Positions 30,232-50,544 of a DNA stretch of 64,000 bases are shown here, one piece after another. Positions within the stretch are counted from its first letter, which is position 1. Each line of letters starts with the position of its first letter. The notes below the pieces were generated by a model. It was not told the DNA's origin and ran no database searches. It saw nothing but the letters and a program-made list of their open reading frames with translations. This DNA is from Rhodocyclales bacterium GT-UBC (lineage in GTDB: Bacteria > Pseudomonadota > Gammaproteobacteria > Burkholderiales > Rhodocyclaceae). Location of the stretch: contig QXPY01000004.1 in the NCBI GenBank assembly GCA_003583745.1, forward strand, positions 186,001 through 250,000, written 5' to 3'. A program made the position numbers and the translations under genes.

Positions 30232-30248
30232 CCCAGATTCAAGCACTT

Positions 30249-30273
30249 AGCCCACCTCACCGGTGGGCTTTTT
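30249..30273 (+). terminator. Rho-independent terminator after tRNA-Phe
   Basis: An 8-bp stem AGCCCACC/GGTGGGCT with a 5-base loop is followed by five Ts, 18 bp behind the tRNA. It survives next to the island edge. Confidence 0.88.
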
Positions 30274-30383
30274 GCTTTTGTCTGAGACTTTTCTGAAAGT
30301 CCGGGTGCGCGCCACTGCGCGCGACGGCGCCTGAAGCACTCCTGCACGGTGAAGTGCGGATGATTTTGGCGACTCGCTATATG

Positions 30384-30406
30384 CAACTCCTCACTGATTG
30401 GAGTTG
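30384..30406 (+). promoter_or_regulatory. Inverted repeat upstream of the integrase
   Basis: CAACTCC-N9-GGAGTTG lies 70-90 bases before the integrase start, just behind a TATATG -10-like box. It is a candidate operator for integrase control. An ATG at 30411 opens a 23-codon ORF that overlaps the integrase start and could couple translation. Confidence 0.45.
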
Positions 30407-30474
30407 TGACATGAAGTTTCTGTTTTCGTTGTTTCCACGGTTCCCCCGTTTGGCACTTTGTGGCGAGGTGTGCC

Positions 30475-31836
30475 ATGGCTAAGGCTTATCAAGAGGGGCG
30501 GGGCTGGTCCATCCGCGGCCAGTACAAAGGCCAGGAAATCTACAAGAGTGGCTTTGCCAGTGCGCGCAAGGCCGAAGACTATCTGCGCGAGCAACAGTGC
30601 CTCCTGGACCAGGGGGGCAAACCGGCACGCCAGGGACCGGAGCGAACGGCGCTTTGTGTCGCCTTGTCCGATTACGCCCGCGAGTGTTTGCCTTACCGCA
30701 AAGGGGCTCGCCAGGATGCGCAGCGGCTGAATCATTATCTGCGGGCCGCCAATTTGCCCATCATCAAGCTGCTCCCGTTTGCTGGCGACTCGGCGGGGGG
30801 CGAGGGCACCCCGCCGGTCAAGCCCCGTATTCGGCACTGGACCGTCACGCTGGTGGACGAGCCGGTACGCGAGATACCGGACAGCCTCCGTGCCCATCGG
30901 GCGGAACAGGCCAAACGTGCCGAGCCTGTCCAGCAAGCGCGCGCCCGACTGGCCTGCATGAAGGTGGGGGATATCCAGACCTATCACTTGAATACGCTCA
31001 TCAACGTCATGAAAGATGCGGGCCTGTCCGCCGCGAGCATCGGTCTGGAGCGTGCCGAGTTGCGGCGGTTTTTTAGTCACGCCCAGAAAGTTTGGCACTG
31101 GGGCGCGCATCGGGTGAACCCCGCTTCGAAGGTCAGTGTGCCGAAAATCGATAACGTGCGGACCCGCATCCTGACGAGCAGCGAATTCGACCGTGTTGTC
31201 CAACAACTGTCCCAATACGACAACCTCTATGTGCTTCCACTGGTCTTGTTCATGCTGGAAACGGCAACCCGTTCCTCGGAGCCGATTGAACATGCCCATT
31301 GGTCAGACGTCGACTGGGACCGGAAAATTCTGCGGTTGCAAGATGCAAAGGCCGGGGGGCGCGAAGTGCCGCTTTCCAACGTTGCACTCGATATCTTGCG
31401 TGACCTGCGCGAAGCCCTCCAGCAACGGGCTCAGACAGTCACCCGGCGTGAGCATCGCGAGAAGTGGCTGGCGGCGGCGCAGGGCGGACCGATTTTCCGG
31501 ACAAGCTATAACGCCCTGAAGAAGGCGTGGTCGGTTGCCTGTAAAGCAGCAGGCGTCGACGATTCCAAGCCCCATGACCTGCGGCGTACCTCGGCGACGC
31601 GATATGCGCTGCAGTTCAATGGCGATATCTTTGTCGTCAAAACCATCACCGGCCACAAAACGGACAAAATGGCCGCCCGGTATGTGCAAATTTCGGCTGA
31701 GATTGTGGCGCGGCTGATGGACAACGAAAGCCTGCCCGAGGACATGGCGCCAGCCAGGGTCAAGCGGCATTCCGGACCTCCGGCGGCATTGCCGGAGAAT
31801 GTGCTGTCGCTTGCCCAGTACCGGCGGAGCGCGTGA
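30475..31836 (+). CDS. int: Tyrosine-type site-specific recombinase (integrase)
   Basis: A 453-residue tyrosine recombinase. The C-terminal catalytic domain shows the expected residues: Arg in ETATRSSEP, Lys in LQDAKAGG, HDLRRT (His and second Arg), GHKT and the nucleophile Tyr in RYVQ. The N-terminal part has a short arm-binding-like segment and a core-binding domain (about 130-225). The ATG at 30475 has a GCGAGG Shine-Dalgarno; a GTG at 30460 is less likely. It reads away from tRNA-Phe and is the presumed integrase of the island. It overlaps the following XRE gene (TGATG). Confidence 0.92.
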   Translation: MAKAYQEGRGWSIRGQYKGQEIYKSGFASARKAEDYLREQQCLLDQGGKPARQGPERTALCVALSDYARECLPYRKGARQDAQRLNHYLRAANLPIIKLLPFAGDSAGGEGTPPVKPRIRHWTVTLVDEPVREIPDSLRAHRAEQAKRAEPVQQARARLACMKVGDIQTYHLNTLINVMKDAGLSAASIGLERAELRRFFSHAQKVWHWGAHRVNPASKVSVPKIDNVRTRILTSSEFDRVVQQLSQYDNLYVLPLVLFMLETATRSSEPIEHAHWSDVDWDRKILRLQDAKAGGREVPLSNVALDILRDLREALQQRAQTVTRREHREKWLAAAQGGPIFRTSYNALKKAWSVACKAAGVDDSKPHDLRRTSATRYALQFNGDIFVVKTITGHKTDKMAARYVQISAEIVARLMDNESLPEDMAPARVKRHSGPPAALPENVLSLAQYRRSA

Positions 31837-35001: not shown

Positions 35002-35238
35002 CTGCACAAATTGGCCATGTGCATACCTGAAACGCTCCAGGGCGGCGCTGTCGAGAGTTTTTTTGTCAACGCAGTAGTAGGGGGTGAAATGGCAAAGCCC
35101 CGGATTTCGCTTGCTTTAGCGCCAGGTAATTCAGCATCCGCAGCCCTCTGTGGGTTTGCCTGGAGGGGTCGATTGCCGGCGCTTTCCATGACGTAGTCAA
35201 AATGAGCAGATGTCATATACAAATCCATGGGCCGTCTG

Positions 35239-35262
35239 TAGAATCGTTTGTCATTGAGACAA
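35239..35262 (+). promoter_or_regulatory. Putative promoter and operator of the WYL-sigma operon
   Basis: A -10-like TAGAAT (35239-35244) is followed after 3 bp by an inverted repeat TTGTC-N5-GACAA (35248-35262), which would cover the transcription start, 17 bp before the WYL start codon. WYL repressors of defence loci (BrxR/CapW type) bind such sites at their own promoters. No convincing -35 box is seen. Confidence 0.5.
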
Positions 35263-35278
35263 GAACAAAGGGGCCGCC

Positions 35279-36190
35279 GTGGCGGCAAACGGGTTTCTGG
35301 CAAAACTCGGACAGGCGCAGAGGGAGAGGCTTGCGCACATAGACTTCCGTCTCTGGTTCCTTGGCGAGGTTTCCAGGGCGGACATCTGTGCGCGCTTTGG
35401 CGTTGCCCCCGCCGGTGCCACGCGCGACTTGGCCCTGTATCGCGAGGCCGCCCCGGACAACATCGCCTTCGACGGCAGAACCAAGACCTACCGCATTGGG
35501 GCCTCGTTCATCCCCTTGTTCGAGCATCCCATCGACCGCGTCCTTTCATCTCTGTCACTCGGCTTCGGAGACGGCGTCGGTGGCGGGGAGGGTCCGATGG
35601 TTCCCTGCGAGTTTCCCTCGCCGATTAACAGGCCGGCGACCGAGACGCTGGCCAGGGTGACTAGGGCAATCGCCTCGAAGTCAGTTCTCCGCGTCGTCTA
35701 CTTTTCTGCTGCGGGTGGGGAGTCCCACCGTGAAATCCTCCCCTTCGCCCTGGTGGACAACGGGCTCCGCTGGCATATTCGTTCCTTCGACAGGAAAACT
35801 TCCTCATTTCGGGACTTCGTTATCACGCGGATACTCTCGGCCGAGGCGGTGGAAGGGGATAGGCCCGGAAGGGGCGAGGGTGCCGATGACGATGCTCAGT
35901 GGACCCGGGTGGTCGAACTCGAACTGGTCGCGCACCCCGATTCAGAACGCCCTGAACTTGCAGCCCTTGATTATCCGATGGCGGACGGGGTTCTCAGGAT
36001 TCGGGCGCGCGCGGCTTTGGCCGGCTACGTCATGAGGCGCTGGAGCGTCGACTGCTCGCCGGACCACCGCCTGCGGAGTCCGGAATATTCGCTGTGGCTT
36101 CGGGATTCGCTGGCACTTTACGGCGTCGAAAGCGCCGCCATCGCGCCAGGATACGTTCCACCTGGCCGGATAGGCCCAGCTCGTGGATAG
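35279..36190 (+). CDS. WYL-domain transcriptional regulator
   Basis: A 303-residue protein starting with GTG, with a purine-rich Shine-Dalgarno (AAGGGG) upstream. The N-terminal region (about 20-75, LWFLGEVSRADICARFGVAP) reads as a winged helix. The middle (about 125-195) is a WYL domain with the strands VLRVVYFSAAGG, HREILPFALVDNGLRWHIR and FRDFVITRIL; a C-terminal extension follows. WYL proteins sense nucleic-acid ligands and often repress phage-defence operons. It is the first gene of the defence module and overlaps or abuts the sigma-factor gene, so the two probably act in one circuit. Confidence 0.85.
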   Translation: MAANGFLAKLGQAQRERLAHIDFRLWFLGEVSRADICARFGVAPAGATRDLALYREAAPDNIAFDGRTKTYRIGASFIPLFEHPIDRVLSSLSLGFGDGVGGGEGPMVPCEFPSPINRPATETLARVTRAIASKSVLRVVYFSAAGGESHREILPFALVDNGLRWHIRSFDRKTSSFRDFVITRILSAEAVEGDRPGRGEGADDDAQWTRVVELELVAHPDSERPELAALDYPMADGVLRIRARAALAGYVMRRWSVDCSPDHRLRSPEYSLWLRDSLALYGVESAAIAPGYVPPGRIGPARG

Positions 36191-36203
36191 GCCGGTGAAG
36201 CCC

Positions 36204-38552
36204 ATGAGTCCCCTCATGCGCATGGCCGTCATTGCCGGGGTCGAGACAGCTGTTCGCCTCCATATTCGGAGGGGTGACAACCTGGATGCCCGGGACGGCG
36301 GCGGGGCGACCCCACTGATGCTCGCTGCCGGCCGAAAGAAGAAGGGCGTCGTGGTTCTGCTCCTGTCCGCCGGAGCCGACCCCTTGTTAACGGACCCGTC
36401 CGGTCTCGACGCCATTGGTCACGCGGAGCGCTCGGGGGCTACAGAATGCGCAGACCTCATTCGCGCTGCCCTGGCGTCCGTTCCCGTCAATTGCCCATCA
36501 GCCAAGGCGGAAGGCAAAACCGTTGGTTCCACGGGACCGGATGACCGTCCTCCCGAAGGCACGTATTTCTCGCAAAACGGCCTTGAGACGGTTGGCGGTC
36601 TGGTGTCGGCAGCAGCGGTTGAATGCGGCGAGACGGGCGCGCTGGCGAGGAAAATCCTTTCCTTTCCGGAAGCCTCGAGCGGGCACACGGCGGACGAATC
36701 TCCCGAAACCATGCAGCGGGTGGAGGAGGCCGACCTCAACGTCAACACTGAATCCGGACCCACCACCGTGGGTGTGGCTGATTTGAGCGGCCTGGACGGG
36801 CTGGACGACGAACCCTGTTTCGGCGGATGGGAGCCCGAGGAGGAAAGCGCCCCCCCTGAAGGTAACACCGCCGTCGCAGACGAAGTTCGGGCAGTACACG
36901 AGGCCATTGGCCGGCACAAAGCTGTCGACTCGGATGAGGATTGGGGCGATGTCGTGGCCTTCCTTCCGGAACGCGCGCTGCCTCTCGTCCGCGAGGATGG
37001 AGAGGGGCCCGGCGTTCGCAGCCTTCTTCTTCGGGCGCTCCGCGAAGGTTCTATTCCAGAGTCATCCCTTGTCGAGGTTTGCCGTGAAGCTGACGGCTCG
37101 CAGAACAAGGAGGCCGAGCGGCTCCTTGCCTTCGTGTTGGGCGACCTTGGTGCCTCGATTGACGAGCGGGATGAGAGTGATGGCGCACCGTACGAACCGG
37201 GTGAGACTTTTGCGGAGGAACCCGTCCTCTCTGAAGCCATGGCGTATGCCGAGGACCTCGCCTCCGGTAGAAATGAGTCGCTTCGGCTCTATCTTCGCGG
37301 GTTCAAGGGCGGGCTACTCGAAGCCGAGGAGGAACTCGCTCTCGGCAGGGCGATGGAGGAGGCCGGCGAGGCCGCGCTCGATGCCTTGGCTGGATGGCCG
37401 GCGGGCATCACTGCCATCGTCGACGCCGGCAGGAGGGTTGCTTGCGGCGAGGCGGACGTCGAGTCGTTCAGTTCTGGCCCGGAACCCTCCGAGAATGGGG
37501 GGCTTGCCCCTCAGGTTTCTGAGTTCGATTCCGACGATGACGCTCTCGAACTAGACCGGGAGTCCTTGGCGTTCGTGGCGGCAGTCGGAGAAATCGAGGC
37601 CTCGGCCGGGAAAAAGGTCCGCCTCCGTGCTGCGCTGGCCGCGGCCAACCTGTCGCGGGGGTTTCTCCTCGAACTGGCCAAGGACGCTGGCGGCCAAGGG
37701 GCCGGGTTGGACTTCGCTGCAGCAGTGACGCGGCAGGCCGCCGCACGCGAGAGGATGATTCTTTCCAACCTCCGGCTGGCCTTTTCACTTGCCAAGAAAT
37801 ACATGCGTTCCGGCGAACCGCTGGAGGACTTGGTCCAGGAGGGGAATATCGGTCTGATGAAAGCGGTCGAGCGATACGACTGGCGCAAGGGGTTCCGCTT
37901 CTCCACCTATGCCACTTGGTGGATTCGCCAACAGATTTCGAGGGCTATCGCCGACAAGTCGAGAACCATCCGGATACCCGTCCATATGCATGAGACCGTC
38001 CGGCGTACGGAGCGCGAGCGAGACGAGTTCGAGGCACGCGCCGGACGGCCGGAAAAGCTCGAGGAAACTGCCCGCCGGATGGGGCTTCCCGTGTGGAAGA
38101 CCCGAAGGATACTCAAACTCTCCGAGGGCACCGCATCGCTCGACGAGCCAGATGCCGAGACGGGACTGCCGGTCTGCGATGGTCTGCCTGGCCCGGAGTC
38201 CGGGGACCCCTGCCTGCGTGTGGAGGCGGCATCGCTGCGCTCGACGCTTATGGGCATGATTGGTGAGTTGAAGGAACGGGAGGGCGAAGTAATCACCCTG
38301 CGTTTCGGACTCGGTGACGAGGACCCAATGACCCTTGAGGAGGTTGGGCAGCGGTTCGACGTGACGCGCGAACGGATTCGCCAAATCGAGGCTAAGGCCA
38401 TAGGCAGACTCTCTCACTCGACCCGCAAAGAAATCCTCGCTGTCTACATGAATGAGGGACGCGGGATAAAAGGGGGCAAGCTTGCCCCGAGCCCCGCCGG
38501 GGGAGCCCAGAAGGACGCAGCGTCCGACTCGGAAACGGACGACGGGACGTGA
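36204..38552 (+). CDS. Ankyrin-repeat / primary-type sigma-70 factor fusion
   Basis: A protein of about 782 residues. Residues 1-95 form about three ankyrin repeats (ATPLMLAAGRKKKGVVVLLL, GADPLLTDPSGLDAIGHAE). An acidic linker follows, then a segment like sigma region 1.1 (about 245-315, VRSLLLRALREGSIPESS and LLAFVLGDLGASIDE). Region 1.2 is near 358-400 (SLRLYLRGFKGGLLEAEEEL), then a non-conserved insert, region 2 (515-590, EDLVQEGNIGLMKAVERYDW, FSTYATWWIRQQI), region 3 (600-650) and region 4 (675-740, LTLRF-type core, TRERIRQIEAKA). All RNA-polymerase and promoter-contact regions are present. GTGs at 36183 and 36195 are alternative starts; 36183 overlaps the WYL stop. It probably directs RNA polymerase to this locus or to other promoters on a signal read by the ankyrin domain; that is inference. 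Confidence 0.88.
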   Translation: MSPLMRMAVIAGVETAVRLHIRRGDNLDARDGGGATPLMLAAGRKKKGVVVLLLSAGADPLLTDPSGLDAIGHAERSGATECADLIRAALASVPVNCPSAKAEGKTVGSTGPDDRPPEGTYFSQNGLETVGGLVSAAAVECGETGALARKILSFPEASSGHTADESPETMQRVEEADLNVNTESGPTTVGVADLSGLDGLDDEPCFGGWEPEEESAPPEGNTAVADEVRAVHEAIGRHKAVDSDEDWGDVVAFLPERALPLVREDGEGPGVRSLLLRALREGSIPESSLVEVCREADGSQNKEAERLLAFVLGDLGASIDERDESDGAPYEPGETFAEEPVLSEAMAYAEDLASGRNESLRLYLRGFKGGLLEAEEELALGRAMEEAGEAALDALAGWPAGITAIVDAGRRVACGEADVESFSSGPEPSENGGLAPQVSEFDSDDDALELDRESLAFVAAVGEIEASAGKKVRLRAALAAANLSRGFLLELAKDAGGQGAGLDFAAAVTRQAAARERMILSNLRLAFSLAKKYMRSGEPLEDLVQEGNIGLMKAVERYDWRKGFRFSTYATWWIRQQISRAIADKSRTIRIPVHMHETVRRTERERDEFEARAGRPEKLEETARRMGLPVWKTRRILKLSEGTASLDEPDAETGLPVCDGLPGPESGDPCLRVEAASLRSTLMGMIGELKEREGEVITLRFGLGDEDPMTLEEVGQRFDVTRERIRQIEAKAIGRLSHSTRKEILAVYMNEGRGIKGGKLAPSPAGGAQKDAASDSETDDGT

Positions 38553-38604
38553 TGGACATGGATGCCAAGCGTTTCTCACCACACTTTGACAGGGGGCACG
38601 CCGA

Positions 38605-40131
38605 ATGACGGGCAAGACTCGCCACGCCCCGCCCAAGGCGGGGGCAATGCTGGAAGCACTTCGCGGCCTCGGCTACTCGACGGCCTCCGCATTGGCCGAC
38701 GTGATAGACAACGGCGTTTCTGCCGGCGCGTCGGAGGTCAGGGTCTCGTTCGACTGGAAGGGGGCAGCCAGCAGGGTCTCTGTCCTTGATGACGGAAAGG
38801 GGATGACCGACCCCGAACTCGAAATCGCGATGACGCTCGGTGCGAAGAGCCCACTCGACGAGCGGGCGGCAGACGACTTGGGACGCTTCGGTATGGGACT
38901 CAAGACAGCCTCCTTTTCGCAGTGCCGCCGACTGACCGTGGCCTCAAGGCGTGAAGGGGGGGCTATCTCTTGCTTGCGTTGGGACCTGGACGCCTTGGCC
39001 TCATCGGACGGCGGCTGGAACTTGTTTGAGGGGCCGGCGGAGGGGTCCGAGGGGTTTCTCGAACCCCTTTCGCTCCTGCGCTCCGGAACACTCGTCCTCT
39101 GGGAGAAGCTCGACCGAATTGTGACCCCGGGTTACGACGTCGGCCATTTCGGCGACCTTTCGGACGACGTCGAGTTGCGTCTGGGCATGGTTTTCCACCG
39201 TCTGTTGGAGGGGGGCCGGCCGGTGTTCAGGCTATACCTGAACGGAAAGCCAGTCAGGCCGTGGGACCCTTTCATGACCGGGCACCCGGCAAAGCCATGG
39301 CACTCGCCGGTCGCTAGAACGGCCACCCCGACAGGTGCCATTGAGGTCCAGTGCCATGTACTTCCCCACAAGGACCGCCTCTCTGAAGACGAATTCAAGC
39401 TGGTAGGCGGCCCAGAGGGGTGGACCTCACAACAGGGCTTCTACGTTTACCGCAACCGCCGCTTGCTTCTTGCTGGCGGGTGGCTAGGTCTCGGTCAAGG
39501 CAGAGCGTGGAACCGGGAGGAGTCGCACCGTCTCGCCCGCATTCGCTTGGACATCCCCAACACCGCAGATGCAGAGTGGAAAATCGACGTCAAAAAGTCC
39601 ACCGCCAGACCGCCGGTGCATGTCAAAGCCTGGCTGACAAAACTCGCCGAGGACACTAGGGAAAGGGCCAGGAGGGTTTTCGCCTTCCGCGGTGCGCCTA
39701 CCCCGGGACCCGGCGGCGTTCAGGTCGAGCAGGCATGGCGCGTTGAGCGGCTGAGAGAAGGCGTCCGCTACCGAATCGACGAGGCGCACCCCGCAGTCGC
39801 GGCCGTACTTGAGGCAGTCGGCGAACGTTCGGCTCTCGTGAGAGCGATGCTCCGCATCGTCGAGGAGACGGTGCCCGTTCAGCGCATCTGGCTGGACACG
39901 GCCGAGAACCGTGATACGCCGAAGACGGGTTTTTCCGGTGAGCCGCCCGAGGCCCCCGAGGGCGTGCAAAAAGTGCTGCTCACCCTCTACCGCGACATGA
40001 CCGGCAGACGTGGCATGAGTTCAGAGTCCGCTGTCCGCGCCTTGTTGGCGACGGACCCGTTCCAAAACTATCCGGCACTCGTCGCCTCCCTGCCAGGAGA
40101 GGACGTGGCCGCAGAAGGGAGTAGTAAGTGA
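38605..40131 (+). CDS. MORC-like GHKL ATPase
   Basis: A 508-residue GHKL (HSP90/MutL/histidine-kinase fold) ATPase of the prokaryotic MORC-like group. The N box is ALADVIDNGVSAGA (about residues 29-42; Asp replaces the usual Glu, as in several MORC-like proteins), motif G1 is VLDDGKGM (about 60), and motif G2 is GRFGMGLKTASFSQ (about 94). An S5-like second domain follows to about 350. Such ATPases are predicted DNA clamps in restriction-like systems. A mini-ORF at 38552-38608 bridges the gap from the sigma gene, and the stop overlaps the Z1 gene (GTGA). Confidence 0.88.
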   Translation: MTGKTRHAPPKAGAMLEALRGLGYSTASALADVIDNGVSAGASEVRVSFDWKGAASRVSVLDDGKGMTDPELEIAMTLGAKSPLDERAADDLGRFGMGLKTASFSQCRRLTVASRREGGAISCLRWDLDALASSDGGWNLFEGPAEGSEGFLEPLSLLRSGTLVLWEKLDRIVTPGYDVGHFGDLSDDVELRLGMVFHRLLEGGRPVFRLYLNGKPVRPWDPFMTGHPAKPWHSPVARTATPTGAIEVQCHVLPHKDRLSEDEFKLVGGPEGWTSQQGFYVYRNRRLLLAGGWLGLGQGRAWNREESHRLARIRLDIPNTADAEWKIDVKKSTARPPVHVKAWLTKLAEDTRERARRVFAFRGAPTPGPGGVQVEQAWRVERLREGVRYRIDEAHPAVAAVLEAVGERSALVRAMLRIVEETVPVQRIWLDTAENRDTPKTGFSGEPPEAPEGVQKVLLTLYRDMTGRRGMSSESAVRALLATDPFQNYPALVASLPGEDVAAEGSSK

Positions 40132-42992
40132 CGGATGAAGAAGGCAAGATTTTCCAGCGGGTTCTGAGCGTCGCCCAGACCCTTCTTCAGGCCGACCGGG
40201 AAAACGGCACGGTTACGCCGGCACTCATATCTGAGCAGGTCGAGGTGGCGGTTATGGTCGTCGCCCGTGGCGCGGACGTCGACAAGAAAGCGGCAATTGC
40301 CGAACTCATACGTCGTTTCAGCATGTGGATAGGGAAGGACTCGACCCTCGCGGACAACGAGGGGCACAAGGCGTGGCTTACCGCTGCCCGCAGGAAGGAC
40401 TGGCCGTATTGGCAGCGCTACCAGTCCATGCTCGAAAGCAGGATGTCCGTGAAGGCCGTGGACGCCTTGGACGAGTCGACTGACCATATTCTCGGGCTCC
40501 TCGAGGACCCCAAGCGCGAGGGGCGGTGGGACAGGCGGGGGCTCGTTGTCGGGCACGTCCAGTCTGGCAAAACGGGCAACTACACCGGCCTCGTCTGCAA
40601 GGCCGCAGACGCCGGCTACAAAATTATCATCGTCTTGGCGGGGCTGCATAACAACCTGCGCTCTCAGACGCAGATTCGTCTCGAAGAGGGATTTCTCGGA
40701 TACGAGACCTCCGCGAAGGGCGACTCCGTGAGGGCCATCGGGGTGGGCGAGTTCGACAGCGACACCGAAATCAGGCCCAACTGCGCGACCAACCGCTCCA
40801 ACAATGGGGACTTCAACACTAAGGTCGCCCAGCACTATGCAATTTCACCAGAGCAGAGGCCCTGGCTTTTCGTGGTGAAAAAGAACAAGACCGTCCTCGA
40901 ACGGCTGCTCAAGTGGATTCGCAATCACGTGGCGGACGCCAAGAACGCGGACGGCCGCCCGCTGGTCACCAACTTGCCACTTCTCCTCATCGATGACGAG
41001 GCCGACCATGCGTCGGTCGATACCGGGGAGCAGCTATTCAACCCAGATGGAACGCCCGACGACGAGCACCAGCCCAAGGCCATCAACAGCCGCATCCGGA
41101 AAATCCTTCACTCGTTTGCCAAGAAAGCCTATGTCGGATACACGGCTACCCCGTTCGCGAACATCTTCATCCACAGGCGTGGCGCGACCAGTGAGGAGGG
41201 GCCGGACCTGTTCCCGCAATCCTTCATCGTCAACCTGGCTGCGCCGTCCAACTACGTGGGGCCCGCCAGGGTCTTCGGCCTGCGTTCCCAGGATGGGCGC
41301 TCGGGCGGTCTTCCCCTGGTTCGTGAGGTGGACGACCACGTCGATTCCACAGGCAAGGAGGGTTGGATGCCCGCGAAGCACAGGCCAGACCACGTCCCCC
41401 TGTATCAGGGGAACGACGCAGTTCCGCCATCGCTTCGCGAGGCCGTCGGGGTCTTCGTTCTGGCGTGCGCTGCCCGGACGCTGAGGGGGCAGGGACGGCA
41501 GCACTCCTCCATGCTGGTACACGTCACGCGATATAACTCCGTACAGGAGGACGTCCGCAGGCAGGTGGAGGACTTGGTCAAGCGCTTCCGACAAAGGGTG
41601 GAGCGCGGGTTCGACCGCGACGAGCTTTTCGATGACTGGCGAGGCCTTTGGGAAAGGGATTTGGTGCCCACCTCGGAGACCCTTGCCCGGGCCCTTCCCG
41701 GGTCGGAGTCAGACTGCGCCCTGCCGGTCTGGGAAGACGTCGTTGCTCTCCTTCCAGAGACGCTCCGGGACATTGATGTCAGGGCCATCAATGGGACGGC
41801 GAAGGACGCCCTGGACTACTCCGAGAACGAGGGAACCGGCTTGAAGGTGATTGCCATCGGCGGCGACAAACTCGCCCGGGGACTGACCCTGGAGGGGCTT
41901 TGCGTCAGCTACTTCGTTCGTACATCGAAGATGTACGACACACTGATGCAGATGGGGCGCTGGTTCGGATACCGTCCGGGCTACATCGACCTGTGCAGGC
42001 TTTACACGAGCGCGGACCTCGTCGAGTGGTTTGGGCACATCGCGGACGCGGCCGAGGAGTTGAGGCAGGAATTCGACACGATGGCCGCCGTCGGCGCTAC
42101 GCCCGAGAACTACGGCATGAAGGTTCAGTCCCATCCTGTTCTCATGGTGACATCCCCGTTGAAGATGCGTTCGGCGAAGAGTCTGCAACTCTCGTTCAGC
42201 GGGGACGTTTTGGAAACCGTCGCCTTCCATCGCGACCATGAAATTTTGGCCAGAAATCTGGCCGCCGCCGAGCGGCTGCTCAACGCGGCGGGAACTCCCG
42301 CTGAGGCCGGCTCCATCGTCCGCACGCGCGGCGCCTCGACGCAGGAGTGGAAGGGGTTCCTATGGAACGACGTGTCGGCTGACCTCGTCGCCGATTTTTT
42401 CTCCTCATACCTTACGCACCCTGCTGCCCGGAAGGTCAACAGTGCGCTCCTGAGCGATTTTGTGCGGGCCATGGCGGCGAACGGCGAACTGACCTCCTGG
42501 ACGGTCGTTCTCATGGGCGGTGGCGAGGGAAAGTCCCACGAGTTCTGTGGCCGCCATATCGTCGATAAGATGATTCGCCGCAAACCCAAGGAGGGCGGTG
42601 GACACTATTCCATAGGCCGGCTGCTGTCGCCGCGGGACGAGGCAATCGACTTGGACGAGGCAGCATGGACGGCAGCCATGGACCTCACCGCTGTGGCTTG
42701 GACAAAGGACCCGGCTCGGCAGTCGGAATCCGACAGACCTGAGCCGCCGAAAATCCCCGGTGGTCCTGCCATTCGGAACGTCCGCGGTTTCGGAGTCCCC
42801 GGTGTACCCGCGATGCCTGAGCGTGGGCTTCTCCTGATTTATCCGCTCGACCCCGGTTTCGCAGAGATGCCTGAGGGCTCGCCGCCGGTCACAGCATTCG
42901 GCGTTAGCTTCCCCGCCAGTAAGTCGAATACGACCGTCAAATATGAGGTCGACCATCTCCTCTGGGAGCGTGAATATGGCTCAGCCGACTGA
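40128..42992 (+). CDS. Z1-domain superfamily II helicase-like ATPase
   Basis: A 954-residue protein. Walker A is GHVQSGKTGNYTGL (about residue 141), Walker B is LLLIDDEADHASVD (about 286), motif III is GYTATPFANIF (about 336), and the late helicase motif is MQMGRWFGYRPGYIDL (about 606). These are the marks of the Z1 family, a SF2-type motor found with MORC ATPases and DNA methylases. It probably moves on DNA or remodels it during restriction. It starts with GTG overlapping the MORC stop. The C-terminal 300 residues have no named domain. Confidence 0.88.
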   Translation: MTDEEGKIFQRVLSVAQTLLQADRENGTVTPALISEQVEVAVMVVARGADVDKKAAIAELIRRFSMWIGKDSTLADNEGHKAWLTAARRKDWPYWQRYQSMLESRMSVKAVDALDESTDHILGLLEDPKREGRWDRRGLVVGHVQSGKTGNYTGLVCKAADAGYKIIIVLAGLHNNLRSQTQIRLEEGFLGYETSAKGDSVRAIGVGEFDSDTEIRPNCATNRSNNGDFNTKVAQHYAISPEQRPWLFVVKKNKTVLERLLKWIRNHVADAKNADGRPLVTNLPLLLIDDEADHASVDTGEQLFNPDGTPDDEHQPKAINSRIRKILHSFAKKAYVGYTATPFANIFIHRRGATSEEGPDLFPQSFIVNLAAPSNYVGPARVFGLRSQDGRSGGLPLVREVDDHVDSTGKEGWMPAKHRPDHVPLYQGNDAVPPSLREAVGVFVLACAARTLRGQGRQHSSMLVHVTRYNSVQEDVRRQVEDLVKRFRQRVERGFDRDELFDDWRGLWERDLVPTSETLARALPGSESDCALPVWEDVVALLPETLRDIDVRAINGTAKDALDYSENEGTGLKVIAIGGDKLARGLTLEGLCVSYFVRTSKMYDTLMQMGRWFGYRPGYIDLCRLYTSADLVEWFGHIADAAEELRQEFDTMAAVGATPENYGMKVQSHPVLMVTSPLKMRSAKSLQLSFSGDVLETVAFHRDHEILARNLAAAERLLNAAGTPAEAGSIVRTRGASTQEWKGFLWNDVSADLVADFFSSYLTHPAARKVNSALLSDFVRAMAANGELTSWTVVLMGGGEGKSHEFCGRHIVDKMIRRKPKEGGGHYSIGRLLSPRDEAIDLDEAAWTAAMDLTAVAWTKDPARQSESDRPEPPKIPGGPAIRNVRGFGVPGVPAMPERGLLLIYPLDPGFAEMPEGSPPVTAFGVSFPASKSNTTVKYEVDHLLWEREYGSAD

Positions 42993-43119
42993 GGCTTTCG
43001 TGACAATCCAGGGCATCGCGTCAATTCGTTTCGGGGATTGCTTTTGTCAAGGGAGCCGAACGCTCGCGCTTCGCCTCATCAAAATGTACCGCGGGCAGGA
43101 AAGAGCAGACGGTATATGA
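42976..43119 (+). CDS. Small ORF bridging Z1 and DUF4420 genes
   Basis: A 47-codon ORF starting inside the end of the Z1 gene; no family is recognised. Its TGA overlaps (ATGA) a further 25-codon ORF at 43116-43193 that runs into the start of the DUF4420 gene. It may be a translational-coupling leader rather than a functional protein. Confidence 0.3.
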   Translation: MAQPTEAFVTIQGIASIRFGDCFCQGSRTLALRLIKMYRGQERADGI

Positions 43120-43176
43120 GCAGCGATATTTCAAAGGCTGGGTTGGGCTCGTACGATTGGTGTTTGAGAGGTGGGC

Positions 43177-44184
43177 ATGGCAAGGCCGATTGATGAATTC
43201 GTGGCAGCGTGGGTCGCACTGTCGGGAAGGGACCCTGGTGAGGGCGGTTGGCGGGGGATTCCTGTGGCGCCGGCTGGTAACTGTGGTCTGGTGGCGGCCA
43301 GGCGCTTTCCGGGCAATGAGGAGGCTCTGCTGGCGTGCTTTCCCTCTGCGCATCTCGGCTTGTCCGAGCATCTTCCCGAGGGAAGGGGGTTCGAAATCGT
43401 TAAGGCCGACCCAAATGGTGACGGAAAGACTTGGCTTGCCCTTTCGCGGCGTGAGTCTGGGAGCCCCGAACTCTTTGCCGAGATGGTTGGCGATGTGGCT
43501 GGGGCGATGGACGCCGCCGTACCCGAGGGGGAGGAGCGGGTCCTGAGAGCAATGCTTCGAAGAGTTCGGATGTGGCAGTCCTTTATGGGCAAGGGGACTC
43601 GCCCGCTTGGCCCGGAGGCCGAGGTCGGCCTCGCGGGGGAGGTTTCCTTCCTGTCGGCACTTCTCGACGCTGGTGTCGATGCGGAGATTGCCCTCGAATC
43701 ATGGGTGGGGCCGGACGATGCTCCCCAGGACTTTGTGCTGGGCAACGGTGCCGTGGAGGTGAAAGCAACGGTCTCTACTGTAGGTTTTCCCGCGAAAATT
43801 GGCTCCCTCGAACAGTTGGACGACTCCATTCTCTCCCCCATTTTCCTTGCGGGGATTCGCTTTGCGGTGGGCGAGTCTGGTATGACCCTGCCGGAGCGTG
43901 TCGCTGATATGGAGGAGAGGCTTGCCGCGGAACCAGCAGCGGCCTCTGCGTTTCGCGAACGGACCTTCGCCGCCGGATACGTCGACACCCACGCAGATAA
44001 ATATACGCGCCGCTTCCTCGACAAGGAGGCCCACGTCCACGCCGTGAATGACGGATTTCCGAGGCTGGTTCGTGGCAATGTCCACGCGGGGGTTTCGAAG
44101 GCCCTGTATGAGATTGACCTTAGCCGCCTCACCGCCCACCGGACGGATTTGAAGGCGGCGTTGCAAGAACTTGGAGTGATTTGA
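43177..44184 (+). CDS. PD-(D/E)XK motif protein (DUF4420), probable nuclease
   Basis: A 335-residue protein. The core (about 145-200) has the restriction-fold order: a Glu in GLAGEVSFL, then DFVLGNGAVEVKAT with the Asp and ExK of the PD-(D/E)XK site. The family is annotated as PD-(D/E)XK motif protein and is repeatedly found next to Z1 and AIPR genes, so it is the likely DNA-cutting subunit. The ATG at 43177 has a GAGGTG Shine-Dalgarno; a GTG at 43171 is possible. The stop overlaps the AIPR start (TGATG). Confidence 0.8.
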   Translation: MARPIDEFVAAWVALSGRDPGEGGWRGIPVAPAGNCGLVAARRFPGNEEALLACFPSAHLGLSEHLPEGRGFEIVKADPNGDGKTWLALSRRESGSPELFAEMVGDVAGAMDAAVPEGEERVLRAMLRRVRMWQSFMGKGTRPLGPEAEVGLAGEVSFLSALLDAGVDAEIALESWVGPDDAPQDFVLGNGAVEVKATVSTVGFPAKIGSLEQLDDSILSPIFLAGIRFAVGESGMTLPERVADMEERLAAEPAAASAFRERTFAAGYVDTHADKYTRRFLDKEAHVHAVNDGFPRLVRGNVHAGVSKALYEIDLSRLTAHRTDLKAALQELGVI

Positions 44185-45986
44185 TGACCCTTCTTGATTT
44201 TCTTCTCGAAACACAGGCCGAGGTTAAAGCCCAGATGAGCGAGGGCTCACCCTTCGCCGAACTCGTTTTCGCCGAGGTCGTCATGCAGCATCTTGCCGAG
44301 GTGGGCATGACCTTCGAGCCCGTCGTGTGCCACTATCAGGCGGAAGTCCGTGGGGAGTCTGGCCGCCGCCGCGAAAAACTGCGCATCACCGGATACGCCG
44401 TATCGGAGGAGATGGACCAGCTTGACCTGTTTGTTAGCCTCTACGACGAGGCAGAGGAGCTAGTCTCGATTCCCGACTCGGAGACGACTGCCGCCGTGGA
44501 GCAGTGCTTGCGCTTTCTCACGCTCTGCGCGTCGGGGAAGATGGCAGAGGAAATCGACCAGTCGCACGACGCCCACCTATTGGCTCTCAACATCCAGAGT
44601 ATTTACAACGATTTGGAGCAGATACGGGTGTTCGTCCTCACCGACAGGGTGGCAAAGTCAAAAAGCTTCAAGACCAAGGAAATTGGTGGCAGGAGCGTCA
44701 AGCTGGAAATTATGGATATCGAACGACTGTTCCGTCACCGCTCAGAGGGTAAACCTCGGGATGAACTTGTCGTCGACTTCAAGGAGGTTTCCGGCTCTCC
44801 GCTGCCGTGCGTTTTCGTTCCCGGCGACACGGGCGATTACGACTATGCGCTTACCGCCATTCCGGGCGAGGCGCTAAGGTTCATTTACGAAAAATTCGGT
44901 CCTCGACTTCTTGAGGCAAACGTCCGCTCGTTCTTGAGCGTTAAGGCGAAGGGCGTCAACGCTGGCATACAAAGTACCCTGCGGAACGCCCCTGAGAGAT
45001 TCATGGCCTACAACAATGGGATTGTCTTGGTCGCTGACGAGATGCGCCTAGACCGGGCAGCGGACGGCTCGCCGGGAATTGTCTGGCTGCGTGGCATGCA
45101 GATTGTGAACGGCGGGCAGACCACTGCCTCCATCTTCTTCGCCAAGAAGAAGTTCGGGGATACCGACCTGAGCAGGGTTCGGGTTCCTGCCAAAATCATC
45201 GTCATGAAGGAGGAGGACCCGGCCAAGGAGGAGGCACTGGTTTCCGATATTTCACGATTCGCCAACTCACAGAACGCGGTCCGCCAATCCGACCTCTCCG
45301 CTAACAAGCCTTTTCATGTCGAAATCGAGCGCCTGTCGCTCTCGGTTTACTGCCCGGACGGAGCTGGCCGCTGGTTCTATGAGCGAGCCGCCGGCAGTTA
45401 CAACACCTTGCTTTCCCGCGAGGGGACGACAGCTGCGAAGCTGCGCATATTGAAAGAGTCCGTACCGACATCGCGCAAAATCACCAAAACCGAGCTTGCA
45501 AAATACGTCATGGCCTGGGAGGCCCAGCCCGATGTGGTGGGCCTCGGCACCCAGAAGTGCTTTGACCGGTTCATGTCGGGGCTGGCCACCGCCGAGGCTG
45601 AGGGTCGGACGGTCGTTCCGGATGTGCCTTATTTCAAGGACCTCGTCGCGAAGGCCCTGATATTCAAGGCGGTGCACAAGACGGCCCGTCCGTTGGTTTC
45701 CGCATTCCTCGCGAACGTTGCCACCTACACGGTCGCCGTGGTTTCCCGCACATACGGGAGCGCCTTCGACCTGGAGCGCGTATGGAGCAGGCAGGGCGTC
45801 TCCCCCCAGTTTATCGAACAGGTCGAGGTTTGGGCCAGGGAGGTCAACGAACGCCTCCATCAGACATCGAACGGAAAGATGATTTCTGAGTGGGCTAAGC
45901 GCCCCGAGTGCAAGGAGGCCATGTTCTCCCGGCCGTTCTCGGCTCCGGTGTTTGACGTTCCGGAGGCTCGACGGAGCGCAGCTTGA
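44184..45986 (+). CDS. AIPR-family protein (abortive infection phage resistance)
   Basis: A 600-residue AIPR protein. The central conserved block is plain: RFMAYNNGIVLVADE (about 272-286), MQIVNGGQTTASIFFAK (about 308) and ISRFANSQNAVRQSDLSAN (about 357). AIPR proteins are linked to phage resistance and occur in MORC/Z1 gene sets; their biochemical role is unsettled. It is translationally coupled to both neighbours (TGATG before, TTGA after). Confidence 0.87.
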   Translation: MTLLDFLLETQAEVKAQMSEGSPFAELVFAEVVMQHLAEVGMTFEPVVCHYQAEVRGESGRRREKLRITGYAVSEEMDQLDLFVSLYDEAEELVSIPDSETTAAVEQCLRFLTLCASGKMAEEIDQSHDAHLLALNIQSIYNDLEQIRVFVLTDRVAKSKSFKTKEIGGRSVKLEIMDIERLFRHRSEGKPRDELVVDFKEVSGSPLPCVFVPGDTGDYDYALTAIPGEALRFIYEKFGPRLLEANVRSFLSVKAKGVNAGIQSTLRNAPERFMAYNNGIVLVADEMRLDRAADGSPGIVWLRGMQIVNGGQTTASIFFAKKKFGDTDLSRVRVPAKIIVMKEEDPAKEEALVSDISRFANSQNAVRQSDLSANKPFHVEIERLSLSVYCPDGAGRWFYERAAGSYNTLLSREGTTAAKLRILKESVPTSRKITKTELAKYVMAWEAQPDVVGLGTQKCFDRFMSGLATAEAEGRTVVPDVPYFKDLVAKALIFKAVHKTARPLVSAFLANVATYTVAVVSRTYGSAFDLERVWSRQGVSPQFIEQVEVWAREVNERLHQTSNGKMISEWAKRPECKEAMFSRPFSAPVFDVPEARRSAA

Positions 45987-46444
45987 CTGACGTCGTTGAT
46001 GCACCAACGCGCAGCCGGATGATGTCCGGTATCCGTGACAGGGACACGAAGCCGGAAATGCTTGTCCGGAAGGCTCTTTTCAAGGCCGGATTTAGGTTTC
46101 GTCTCCACCGGCGAGACCTGCCGGGTGTTCCTGATATCGTGCTTCCGGGGCGAAGGGTGGTGGTCTTCGTCCATGGCTGTTTTTGGCACATGCATGCAGG
46201 CTGCCTCAACTCCCGGATTCCCGCTACGCGTTCGGAGTTTTGGCGGGAGAAGCTGTCCCGAAACGCAGAGCGGGACCGGGCCACCAGGGAGTCGCTCGTG
46301 GCTGCCGGCTGGCGCGTCCTGACGGTTTGGGAATGTGCGACGAGGGACCCAAGGGTTCTGTGGGCGCTTCCGGATATGTTGCGATGCTGGATTGACGGTC
46401 CAGAGCCTAGCGGAGAAATTTCGCGCGCCGATATGCCCCAATAA
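45983..46444 (+). CDS. vsr: Very-short-patch repair (Vsr) endonuclease
   Basis: A 153-residue Vsr family protein starting with TTG in a TTGA overlap with the AIPR stop. The N-terminus VVDAPTRSRMMSGIRDRDTK, the catalytic Asp in LPGVPDIVLP and the metal/histidine cluster in FVHGCFWHMH are as in Vsr. Vsr nicks at T:G mismatches arising from 5-methylcytosine deamination, which fits the convergent cytosine methylase; in MORC/Z1 systems Vsr-like nucleases have also been proposed as restriction subunits. Its 3' end overlaps the methylase gene by 38 bases. Confidence 0.93.
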   Translation: MTDVVDAPTRSRMMSGIRDRDTKPEMLVRKALFKAGFRFRLHRRDLPGVPDIVLPGRRVVVFVHGCFWHMHAGCLNSRIPATRSEFWREKLSRNAERDRATRESLVAAGWRVLTVWECATRDPRVLWALPDMLRCWIDGPEPSGEISRADMPQ

Positions 46445-47978
46445 GGTCGGAGACTAGAACCGCAATCTTCCGGGCCAGGAGGGGCGGAACGGCGTTGCCA
46501 ATTTGAGTGTATTGCTGGGTCCTATTTCCCTCGAAGAAGTAGTTGTCGGGGAAAGTTTGCAGACGTGCGGCCTCGCGGACCGTGAGGCTTCGGCACTGCG
46601 AGGGGTCGTGGTGGATGTAGTAGTGCCCGTCTTTGGCGATGTGGGCGACGACCGTCGTAGACGGGTGTCCGCCCATCTGGACCTTGAAGCGGTCAGCGAA
46701 AGGGACCGACTCGGATGACACATTGACGTGGGCAGGCAGAAGTTCGGGCGGAAAGTTCTGGATTTTGGGCGAGCATCCATATTCCTTGGCGAAGCTGGAC
46801 GCGAACAGGTAACGGTGAAGGTCCGAGCGCATATGGCTTCTCGACTCGTGTTGCAGGACTCCACCGAGTCGGCGGTCGAGATACCAGTCGCGAACCTTCT
46901 GCGGAAGTTCGTCGGAGCCTGCCCAGGGGATGAACGTCCCTCCGCTTCCCGTTAGCCGCTCGCCTCGCTGGGCCGCACTCCTCATCCTCTCCACCAACGG
47001 GAAGCGTTCCTCAATGTATTGCAGGGATAGTGCATCCGCGGCCTCGGCAAGAGCCGCGAGCCAAGCTTCGCGAGAGTCCGGCTCCTTCGATAAGCGGCTC
47101 CGCACGGCGGGTAGCCCCGAAAGGGCCTGCTCCACGGTGAACTTGTTCTGGCACGGGGTAAGAAGGAACCTCTCGGGGTGTGTGCGGAGTAGGGGAGTTG
47201 CCAACGCCACGTCTTCGCGGACTCCGAACAGGATGACTCTGTGGCGGGTCTGAGGGATGCCGAAGTGCTCAGCCTCGATGACAAAATCGTGCGGGTCAAG
47301 GTCCTCGGCGTTTCCGGGGACGACGAACGAGCGCAGGCGGTAGGAGTATGCGCCGCCTGGGTTTGATAGGTCTTTCAGAATTCGTTCGAAAATTCCCGAC
47401 CCGCCATGGGTCGAGGACAGGATTCCCTTGACGTTCTCCATGACGAAAACCGTCGGCTGGAAAACCTGGATGATTCGAAGGTATTCCTTGTAGAGAAAGT
47501 GCTTTTCGTCACTTTCGAACTCTTCCTTGCTTTCCTTTGTTCGCCGGGAGCGTCCCGCCATGGAATATGCTTGGCATGGAGGCCCTCCGATGAGTACCCA
47601 TTCTTCGGCACCATCCAGCGCTTCGCCTATCCAGGCATCTATCTCAGAATGCGGGGTCTTGCCGAGTTCGGCATTCTTCGCCTCTGCGGATGCTGCTATG
47701 ACTTCGGGCGGAACGGATGGGTCCTTGAAAAGCTCCTCCCTTGAAATCTCGCTGCGTACGTAACGGTAGTAGGCGTCGGGGACTTGGTTTTTTGGGAAGG
47801 CCCGGAACAGGGCGCGGAGGGAAAGTGTTCGATGAGCGACGGGGTCTTTTTCAATGGATACGCGCAGTTGAAACCGGCGGGAGCCTGGCTCCGTTCCGCC
47901 CAACGATGAAAATCCCTCTCCAAGGCCCCCGGGACCCGCAAAGAGGTCGATTACCGGTATCGTCTGCTGCTGAGCCAT
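46407..47978 (-). CDS. DNA (cytosine-5) methyltransferase
   Basis: A 523-residue m5C methyltransferase. Motif I is VIDLFAGPGGLGEGF (residues 9-23), motif IV is GGPPCQAYSMAG with the catalytic Cys (about 140), motif VI is FVMENVKGIL (about 190), motif VIII is TRHRVILFGVR (about 250), and motifs IX-X are LTVREAARLQTFPDNY and QIGNAVPPLLARKIA. The target-recognition region lies at about 290-450; the sequence specificity cannot be read. It converges on the defence operon and protects self DNA, or feeds mismatches to Vsr. Its promoter must lie in the 425 bp upstream. Confidence 0.93.
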   Translation of the reverse strand: MAQQQTIPVIDLFAGPGGLGEGFSSLGGTEPGSRRFQLRVSIEKDPVAHRTLSLRALFRAFPKNQVPDAYYRYVRSEISREELFKDPSVPPEVIAASAEAKNAELGKTPHSEIDAWIGEALDGAEEWVLIGGPPCQAYSMAGRSRRTKESKEEFESDEKHFLYKEYLRIIQVFQPTVFVMENVKGILSSTHGGSGIFERILKDLSNPGGAYSYRLRSFVVPGNAEDLDPHDFVIEAEHFGIPQTRHRVILFGVREDVALATPLLRTHPERFLLTPCQNKFTVEQALSGLPAVRSRLSKEPDSREAWLAALAEAADALSLQYIEERFPLVERMRSAAQRGERLTGSGGTFIPWAGSDELPQKVRDWYLDRRLGGVLQHESRSHMRSDLHRYLFASSFAKEYGCSPKIQNFPPELLPAHVNVSSESVPFADRFKVQMGGHPSTTVVAHIAKDGHYYIHHDPSQCRSLTVREAARLQTFPDNYFFEGNRTQQYTQIGNAVPPLLARKIAVLVSDLIGAYRRAKFLR

Positions 47979-48403: not shown

Positions 48404-50356
48404 TCACATACGTGCGAATGCGCTTCTCAGTGCTGCATGCGCGCGTTCAGCGCCATCTGTCCCACGCAAATGGGCGTAATGCTTCCGAACGGTGTCTTCC
48501 TTGTCATGAAGCACCTGAGCTGCGATTTCCCAAGCGCCAGGCATCGCCTTCAGAATTGCAGTTCCGTTGATGTAGCGGAAAGCATGAGGTCCAACTCCAG
48601 GACAATTCAACAGATAGTGCTTGGTCAGATGGAATACTCGCCGGTTAAGCGTTTCCCAGCCTTTGGTGGCAGCTTCGCCATCAGCCGACAGAAAGACATA
48701 ATCGGTTTCCCGGGCATGTGGCAGTAGTGGCCGGTAGCGCTTGATGTACCTTTCAAGGTCACTCCAAAGTGCCTCATCAACCGGCATGTCATAAGGTCGG
48801 TCCTTGGCTGCCCCCGCTTGGTTTTTAAAATACTCGGGAGGAATCACTATCCGCCATGAACCATCAGTGGTTTGCCTTAACTGGCCTGAGTTGTCATCCC
48901 TGTAGCTCAGCAGCTTCATGTTCTTTGCACGTAGCGGATTTGAGGCAAGAAGCTTGATGAGCAGGAGGTCTCGTGCCCAGATAGCTTCGGTAAGGCCGCC
49001 TGTACTGGGGCGATGAGTTTTCATCCGTTGCACCATGTCGCTGACCTCCTCCATGGGATTCGAGAGTTCCAATATGGCCTTGATGGGCTCGAATGTGTCC
49101 CGGGACTGCTTTTGCCGTGGGGTAAGTTGCTTCAAGGTTTTTTTAGTCCACTCAAAGGCCTTGGCGCATAACTCTGGCCAGCCAATGTCCCGACTGAGTG
49201 CAACATGCAGTGAGGCGGCCAGATGGGGGGATTGCGTTAGATAACCAGTGATGGGGTGAACCAGGCTTTTGACAAACTTGATGAAGCCGATGATGCCTTC
49301 ATGGATTTTTCCGTCGGCACGTTTGACCAGCCATTGGATGTAGTTGGACAGGTGGTTTATCGCCAGAACGCAGGTGAGTGTCTGCACGGTCTCGCTGGGG
49401 AGCTCCGCGCCTCCGGATGTTTTCTGCAATGTGAGCCACCCGCAATATCGGGTTAGTGCTGTCCAGTGAATCGTGGCTGTCGGGCAATATTTGCTGTCGA
49501 CGAAACAGTACCAAAGGGCTTCGTTTGCGACGAATGTTGTGTGTTCGGTTAAGTCCCATCGACCTCGTGCCTGGCGTTCCAAGGACGGGAGGAGGGAGGT
49601 CTTGTAAGAGACAAAGTCTGACCACTCTATTTTGAACGCATCCGATATGATTTTTAGTCGAAAGGGGTTCTGCTGGAACTGGCTGATACGTTTACGGTAG
49701 TTGATGGCATTGCTGGTGATAGGGGCGACTGCTGGAGTAACGTCTTCGCCACCCAGCAGGCAAACGAGCGCCCCTGGTTCCATGCCGAAGTACGACTCCA
49801 ATCGCCTGAGTTTGGGTATCGATGATGTCTGAGGTGTCGTTCCAGATGACCAGCGCTGGAGTGCGGAGTGCGAAATGCCAACGTTTTTCGCCAGTTTTTT
49901 GATACCACCTGCCTCTGACAGCAGTTCCCGGATGGCTATCTGAAAAGGTGGAAAGGTGCCGGTGTTGGCGGCCCGTTCCCGGTCCATCTGCAGCAATAAC
50001 GAGCGCCAATGACCGAGCAAGTTTTTTCGGTTCGCAATATAGCTCGTGCTGCGTTCTTCTTTGGTTAGCCTTGTGACATGCTCGCCCAGTCGGCGATAGT
50101 AGGCCGCGCGCAGATGAGAGCCGATTGCGCACTCTGCGCTGAAGCCATGGTCGGCCATAAAGGCCTTCATGGCAGTGAGATGGTTACTCAGGACCTGCGG
50201 GGATTTTCCGGTCCGTGCCATGGCGGTTTCCATGGCGACAACTAGCTGGCTGAATGTGGTGTCAGTGGTGGTCACGGGCTTTTTCCGTTGTGCCCGACTG
50301 ATACGCTGCGCTGTCTGCGAGTAATTATGTGACGCCGGCAGGAAGAAATGAGCCAT
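48404..50356 (-). CDS. Large tyrosine recombinase with internal HTH
   Basis: A 650-residue protein. The C-terminal domain has the tyrosine-recombinase pattern: Arg in ASNPLRAKNMKLL (about 490), HAFRYINGTAIL (HxxR, about 590) and HDKEDTVRKHYAHL with the presumed nucleophile Tyr. A helix-turn-helix lies at about 160-190 (GGIKKLAKNVGISHSALQRW). The ATG at 50356 has a clear AAGGAG Shine-Dalgarno. It belongs to a separate right-hand mobility module with an AlpA-like gene upstream in the same direction. GC is lower than in the defence module. Confidence 0.78.
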   Translation of the reverse strand: MAHFFLPASHNYSQTAQRISRAQRKKPVTTTDTTFSQLVVAMETAMARTGKSPQVLSNHLTAMKAFMADHGFSAECAIGSHLRAAYYRRLGEHVTRLTKEERSTSYIANRKNLLGHWRSLLLQMDRERAANTGTFPPFQIAIRELLSEAGGIKKLAKNVGISHSALQRWSSGTTPQTSSIPKLRRLESYFGMEPGALVCLLGGEDVTPAVAPITSNAINYRKRISQFQQNPFRLKIISDAFKIEWSDFVSYKTSLLPSLERQARGRWDLTEHTTFVANEALWYCFVDSKYCPTATIHWTALTRYCGWLTLQKTSGGAELPSETVQTLTCVLAINHLSNYIQWLVKRADGKIHEGIIGFIKFVKSLVHPITGYLTQSPHLAASLHVALSRDIGWPELCAKAFEWTKKTLKQLTPRQKQSRDTFEPIKAILELSNPMEEVSDMVQRMKTHRPSTGGLTEAIWARDLLLIKLLASNPLRAKNMKLLSYRDDNSGQLRQTTDGSWRIVIPPEYFKNQAGAAKDRPYDMPVDEALWSDLERYIKRYRPLLPHARETDYVFLSADGEAATKGWETLNRRVFHLTKHYLLNCPGVGPHAFRYINGTAILKAMPGAWEIAAQVLHDKEDTVRKHYAHLRGTDGAERAHAALRSAFARM

Positions 50357-50373
50357 GAGCCTAACTCCTTGTT

Positions 50374-50544
50374 TCATACAAGATAGCATAAAACTATCAA
50401 TGTGCACTGCCTTACAAGGCGTAGGCTATCGTTCTCATTATTTCTGTGCAGGGAGTGCATCAGTCGGGCGAGTTCAACTCGCCCTCGGTATAGCGAATCC
50501 GCAATATTTTCAGGGGTAATCAGAGCTAAATTGTGCTCTGCCAT
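50374..50544 (-). CDS. Small hypothetical protein between recombinase and AlpA genes
   Basis: A 56-codon ORF starting inside the end of the alpA-like gene (19-base overlap) and ending 17 bp before the recombinase start. The sequence (ITPENIADSLYRGRVELARL and a Cys-containing end) looks like a real protein but matches no family I know. Confidence 0.4.
   Translation of the reverse strand: MAEHNLALITPENIADSLYRGRVELARLMHSLHRNNENDSLRLVRQCTLIVLCYLV

Follow-up and report, generated by a model that had tools for sequence, protein, structure and literature searches.

Introduction

The MZA anti-phage system, mzaABCDE, was reportedly described by Gao et al. in 2020; in the literature that we found, the sigma factor of this operon is a named part whose role is left unexplained. 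Other defence operons carry the regulators BrxR or CapW, which, according to PMC9122601 and PMC9122588, repress at promoter-adjoining palindromes, with 5-nucleotide (nt) spacers in BrxR. Here we analyse a locus in a 64,000-nt stretch of Rhodocyclales bacterium GT-UBC (contig QXPY01000004.1, positions 186,001 to 250,000; the window), where PADLOC and NCBIfam place five adjoining genes, mzaA to mzaE, in MZA order and which, judged by its sequence, is an anti-phage gene cluster of this known type. None of the five Mza proteins reaches its NCBIfam equivalog cut-off (NF041931 to NF041935; bits and cut-offs in Table 1), so the locus is MZA-type and divergent, not an equivalog. Pfam, PADLOC and NCBIfam bore out the gene content given by a first-pass annotation, seven plus-strand genes and a convergent methylase that combine a sigma factor and a WYL regulator with a MORC-Z1-DUF4420-AIPR-Vsr-Dcm core. 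Its system-level linkage held up as well; its private promoter class did not, nor did its view that a sigma factor inside the locus is unlike described systems, which was wrong, as PADLOC and NCBIfam (NF041931) both list MzaA. The evidence below suggests that MzaA, a relative of the main sigma factor, is likely used to switch defence on.

Results and Discussion

Sequence profiles and a structural model together identify MzaA as a predicted RpoD-type sigma factor, with a region 1.1-like domain, regions 1.2, 2 and 4 and most of the residues taken to contact promoter DNA. An AlphaFold2 model built on an alignment of 68 MzaAs (mean predicted local distance difference test score, pLDDT, 78; predicted template modelling score, pTM, 0.59) contains a confident ankyrin domain at residues 10-100, a disordered linker at 103-214, a helical domain at 276-330 and then region 1.2 through to region 4. 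In Foldseek its top hits are chains of E. coli sigma70, aligned across as many as 581 columns, a match that rests on the E-value (best 5.7e-19), with low TM-scores of 0.19-0.30 against the whole MzaA model in the rows shown. Ankyrin domains usually bind proteins, and Ank_2 is found in 60 of the 68 MzaAs (Pfam, E up to 0.01). RpoD N-termini from 399 genomes of the window's order match positions about 200-362 of an MzaA N-terminal profile, which points to a region 1.1-like domain between ankyrin and core sigma; in another comparison this pairing is weak (8.5 bits, not significant). Homology to RpoD is continuous through region 3 (residues 519-756), and Pfam matches region 1.2 in 27 of the 68 N-termini, the window's not among them. 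The same contig encodes a separate RpoD of 667 amino acids (aa) (G000:C3:264782-265492; TIGR02393 395 bits, cut-off 354, versus 256 for MzaA), so MzaA is not the cell's housekeeping sigma factor. In one relative (L081:4221-7505, plus strand) the MzaA frame has GcrA domain matches in three stretches, the best at its C-terminus; in alphaproteobacteria GcrA acts as a cofactor of sigma70.

Conservation is concentrated where a sigma factor meets its promoter. A set of 29 RpoDs has 164 columns conserved at 90% or more, and 37 of these reach that level in MzaAs too: 16 of the 24 that we take to be promoter contacts versus 21 of the remaining 140 (Fisher p 4.8e-7). The -35 contacts R584, E585, R586, R588 and Q589 (E. 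coli numbers) are present in all 68 MzaAs, as is R441 at the -10, with Q437 in 67; T440 is found in no more than 31 (the window has S), and Y425, K426, T429, W433, E458, R554 and V582 each fall below 90%. Judged from this alignment, the promoter contacts are under strong purifying selection, and MzaA looks like a sigma factor that still reads housekeeping-type promoters. The private promoter class thus found no support and was rejected as a specificity claim, because most of the assumed contact residues of MzaA are those of RpoD. These retained contacts, and the parts from the region 1.1-like domain to region 4, would also suit a back-up primary sigma factor that maintains transcription of defence (or host) genes once RpoD has been disabled by a phage; MzaAs are diverse, at 22-57% identity to the window's, and could escape anti-sigma proteins. 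A near-invariant region 4 would nevertheless retain much of the binding surface for these proteins, and we consider this role improbable.

MzaA travels with its neighbours. A scan for MzaC across 84,980 species, each represented by one genome, gave at least 586 confirmed relatives, and among the best 80, which were analysed, MzaB, D and E occur in 79 loci each, MzaA in 67, Vsr in 61, Dcm in 58, Vsr and Dcm together in 52 and WYL in 11. The mzaA and mzaB genes overlap by 4 nt in 30 of 68 pairs. Because a scan of the 399 genomes with NF041931 was swamped by RpoD, it was repeated with the N-terminal profile, scoring up to five candidates per genome. The five full-profile matches (304-416 bits, nearly whole length) all lie in genomes with a near-type MzaC, and a sixth such genome (G201) has a contig that ends before MzaB; the best match in the other genomes has E 3.6e-31 or weaker and at most 108 bits, mostly from positions about 180-205 to 362, the start of RpoD. 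The co-occurrence that the first-pass annotation proposed to check is borne out by both searches; no MzaA-type sigma factor was seen apart from the mza core in the 399 genomes. A plasmid search with MzaA matched 368 records, none over more than 80% of the protein. Upstream of mzaA, 75 of 133 open reading frames were given to Pfam; integrases account for five, no other Pfam family recurs, and two further WYL proteins make the WYL count a lower bound.

The relatives also vary within the core. In L062, L066, L068, L069, L070 and L072 MzaC is 55-58% identical to the window's, MzaE 66-76% and MzaB 65-73%, and from these values MzaC seems to have been exchanged; in L009 and L010 MzaB, C and E stand at 78-80%, Vsr and Dcm at 44-46% and differently arranged, and the Dcm-Vsr pair seems to have been replaced independently. 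In L042 (14631-17336), L052, L053 and L058, MzaE is immediately followed by another MzaE-like protein of larger size (883-943 aa); a Pfam AIPR match has been confirmed only in the copy from L042.

Within this system the Dcm-Vsr-MzaB-E core looks like the older part and the sigma factor like an addition. We chose 33 loci, not all matches, from 399, 369 and 398 genomes of the order, class and phylum: five repeat earlier loci, five are new near-type loci, all with MzaA, and 23 are distant MzaB-E loci, 21 with Dcm and 19 with Vsr. In a quick MzaC tree of 109 rows (support by the Shimodaira-Hasegawa-like approximate likelihood ratio test, SH-aLRT, only; long branches among distant rows) the window falls in a six-row set (100), nested within a set of 86 rows (98) to which none of the 23 distant rows belongs. 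With eight cut loci left out, the sigma label needs two changes on this tree, which, for a root outside the 86 rows, are one gain at their base and one loss; these changes and the sigma-less distant loci together suggest the order of events given above. MzaA is kept in 73 of 78 judgeable near-clade loci. A sigma tree did not recover a single origin of MzaA: at least two changes are forced by starred branches and four are needed, on long branches and with the RpoD rows labelled 'alt' by mistake. Among thirteen viral-collection loci MzaA occurs only in L196, which is also the sole intact near-type locus long enough to include it; L194 and L195, whose MzaC is at 44% identity, have sufficient space for MzaA, yet lack it. 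Beside the distant locus L169, the sister row of the sigma clade in the MzaC tree, stands a 905-aa protein (L169:12367-15084, minus strand) with sigma region 4 (Pfam E 1.5e-7), through which it scores 58 bits to MzaA, and, by eye, a stretch like the C-terminal domain of the RNA polymerase alpha subunit; it is a further RNA-polymerase-like neighbour of the system.

A candidate promoter element precedes the operon. When every 8-mer was counted in the 500-nt upstream regions of 65 MzaA loci (the 68 minus three without upstream sequence), TGTAGAAT came out as the most enriched, occurring in 10 of the 65 versus 13 of 2,866 chunks cut from all loci, the upstream regions themselves among them (p 7.6e-13, uncorrected for the 65,536 words compared). 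It has 17 copies in 1.46 Mb, ten of them in coding-strand orientation ahead of mzaA or its WYL gene; eight of the ten read CTGTAGAAT, and TGTAGAAT often continues as TTTGTAA. Two pairs, L015/L070 and L062/L069, share longer flanks around it and are not independent. All ten loci belong to the 25 of the window's clade. The window's candidate -35 is a poor match to the TTGACA consensus (4/6). A second motif, AAATGGC, was rejected as a promoter; in many copies it is the coding start of the ankyrin domain. As a guide to a regulon, TGTAGAAT gave nine sites in the window's own genome with no clear pattern.

The WYL protein that heads the operon is, from its matches, a member of the BrxR family (7qfz_A, 284 bits over residues 4-293, full-length; 7t8k BrxR, 73 bits). 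The perfect palindrome behind the -10 has a counterpart in L072 at the same distance (TTGTC-ATCAT-GACAG); since a perfect 5-N5-5 palindrome arises by chance once per about 570 nt, or 0.33 per 190 nt, TTGTC-N5-GACAA is a candidate operator only. Another box, TAATC-N5-GATTA, is present with no more than one mismatch ahead of WYL-mzaA in L009, L048, L057 and L072, among 16 such sites in 1.46 Mb.

From these elements we propose, tentatively and as a rather unlikely reading in this specific form, that MzaA is a primary sigma factor gated by infection. The ankyrin domain would clamp region 1.1 until a phage-made ligand releases it; the freed protein would take RNA polymerase to housekeeping-type promoters, beginning with the -35-less promoter of its own operon. 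The outcome would be an all-or-none immune switch, driven by a sigma factor and added on top of a BrxR-type repressor and a restriction core based on cytosine methylation.

Several observations weigh against such a switch. MzaA is found in none of the 23 distant loci (matches above 60 bits counted, at least 2.3 kb upstream read). Among the 13 of 80 loci without it, eight run into a contig end or have a broken upstream part (L012, L020, L022, L024, L035, L044, L067, L078), and five, all from Pseudomonas or Stutzerimonas with Dcm directly before MzaB (L039, L040, L051, L055, L056), hold full-length MzaB-E with no sigma factor anywhere in the stretch; the core, then, does not need the sigma. TGTAGAAT is missing from 15 of the 25 loci of the window's clade, including all three added later, and from all 43 upstream regions outside it, with no exact copy in L153, L154, L155, L165, L167 or viral L196. 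Ten aligned promoters show no conserved -35 (mean 2.6/6 matches versus 2.36 random), and one TGTAGAAT of the window's own genome (L192) sits in a promoter-like TTGACA-16-TAGAAT. As the DNA-contact residues of MzaA are largely RpoD's, host RpoD could use the same promoter; it can probably use the TAGAAT hexamer too, and the element would mark a promoter, not which sigma factor reads it. On the side of the repressor, no more than 10 of 67 loci have WYL immediately ahead of MzaA, and it is, by this distribution, an optional layer; the best TAATC-N5-GATTA in L076 has two mismatches, and L073, L074, L077, L080 and L081, with more distant WYL proteins, have no such box within three.

The sigma-less loci would sit easily with an ordinary ATP-dependent 5-methylcytosine restriction-modification system in which the sigma factor is a passenger of little importance, for MzaB-E with both Vsr and Dcm is common in the distant relatives (19 of 23) and the five Pseudomonas-type loci retain MzaB-E at full length. 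That reading is improbable given how faithfully the near clade keeps MzaA and how strongly its contacts appear to be selected. A serious possibility, though still a doubtful one, is that MzaA belongs to a sensing or effector complex and does not regulate the operon. As an RpoD look-alike it might load on RNA polymerase at housekeeping-type promoters, phage early ones included, or serve as bait for the anti-sigma proteins of phages; MzaB-E would be brought to that promoter DNA by the ankyrin domain. The largely primary-sigma contacts, synthesis in step with MzaB through the 4-nt overlap, the conserved ankyrin domain and the patchy promoter element all fit this alternative; the distant and near loci whose core has no sigma factor count against it as well.

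The switch and the effector complex differ in what they would mean. If MzaA is a switch, control of defence by a private relative of the primary sigma factor would be a new regulatory principle; if it is an effector part, the system would read RNA polymerase or promoters. Handles on its role are the defined promoter element, the candidate WYL operators, the region 1.1-like domain behind a sensor-like domain, the natural sigma-loss loci and the distant relatives without sigma.

Table 1. Features of the MZA-type locus (window positions).
Feature	Position	Strand	Basis
Weak candidate WYL box TAGTC-N5-GAGCA	35194..35208		3 mismatches to TAATC-N5-GATTA; window copy alone not significant
TATACA, candidate -35, 17 nt before -10	35216..35221	+	TGTACA at same spacing in L009 and L072
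CTGTAGAAT holding -10-like element TGTAGAAT (TAGAAT 35239-35244)	35236..35244	+	8-mer enrichment
TTGTC-ATTGA-GACAA, perfect 5-N5-5 palindrome, candidate BrxR-type operator	35248..35262		starts 3 nt after -10
WYL-domain regulator, BrxR family, 303 aa	35279..36190	+	PF13280; 7qfz_A E 1.4e-83, then CapW/BrxR chains
mzaA: ankyrin + RpoD-type sigma, 789 aa	36183..38552	+	NF041931 515 bits (cut-off 800)
MzaA ankyrin repeats, residues about 8-100	36204..36482	+	Pfam; AlphaFold2 pLDDT about 97
MzaA sigma region 1.1-like domain, residues about 270-330	36990..37172	+	RpoD N-terminus matches to MzaA profile; AlphaFold2 helical domain
MzaA sigma region 2, residues 526-595	37758..37967	+	PF04542 81 bits
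MzaA sigma region 4, residues 693-744	38259..38414	+	PF04545 69 bits
mzaB: GHKL (MutL/MORC-like) ATPase, 508 aa	38605..40131	+	PF13589; PADLOC MzaB 616 bits; NF041932 741 (cut-off 850)
mzaC	40128..42992	+	PF10593; PADLOC MzaC 1206 bits; NF041933 1286 (cut-off 1500)
mzaD: DUF4420 PD-(D/E)XK nuclease, 337 aa	43171..44184	+	PF14390; PADLOC MzaD 204 bits; NF041934 366 (cut-off 420)
mzaE: AIPR protein, 601 aa	44181..45986	+	PF10592, PF22879; PADLOC MzaE 699 bits; NF041935 912 (cut-off 1050)
Vsr endonuclease, 153 aa	45983..46444	+	PF03852; TIGR00632 151 bits (above cut-off)
Dcm-type C5 cytosine methyltransferase, 523 aa	46407..47978	-	PF00145; TIGR00675 150 bits (above cut-off)

A gap of 178 nt separates mzaC and mzaD in the window (42993-43170); the two overlap in all 79 other loci with both genes. 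Next to the locus, a 667-aa protein (48404-50407, minus strand) has no Pfam, PADLOC or NCBIfam match and, by eye, an end that resembles a tyrosine recombinase. At 30156-31836 a tRNA-Phe is followed by a phage-type integrase gene, the presumed start of an island for which no att repeats of 16 nt or more were found.

Comparison with known systems

CglI and NgoAVII (PMC4267653) use a PLD-family nuclease with a B3 domain, in place of which the window has DUF4420 and GHKL proteins; no PLD family is present among the eight locus proteins (Pfam, E up to 0.001), and the resemblance is a works-like analogy only. The MORC/paraMORC restriction systems (Iyer, Abhiman and Aravind 2008, PMC2292703) share a GHKL ATPase with a superfamily II helicase, Dcm, Vsr and AIPR, and the word 'sigma' is absent from the main text of that paper. 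As in the BrxR and CapW operons, a winged helix-turn-helix (wHTH)-WYL protein heads a defence operon with a promoter-side palindrome, here with a 5-nt spacer as in BrxR; the arms of the BrxR palindrome are 10-11 nt there versus 5 nt in the window's candidate operator. With MZA itself the locus has in common five proteins in the same order, the sigma factor MzaA first, and an ankyrin-sigma architecture that spans positions 2-716 of the 726 in NF041931; it differs in the WYL gene that overlaps the head of mzaA, the attached vsr and dcm and the scores below cut-off. A related system described in a paper has about 20% identity to MzaB-E and MzaA in few members only, and the window lies on the MZA side of that divide.
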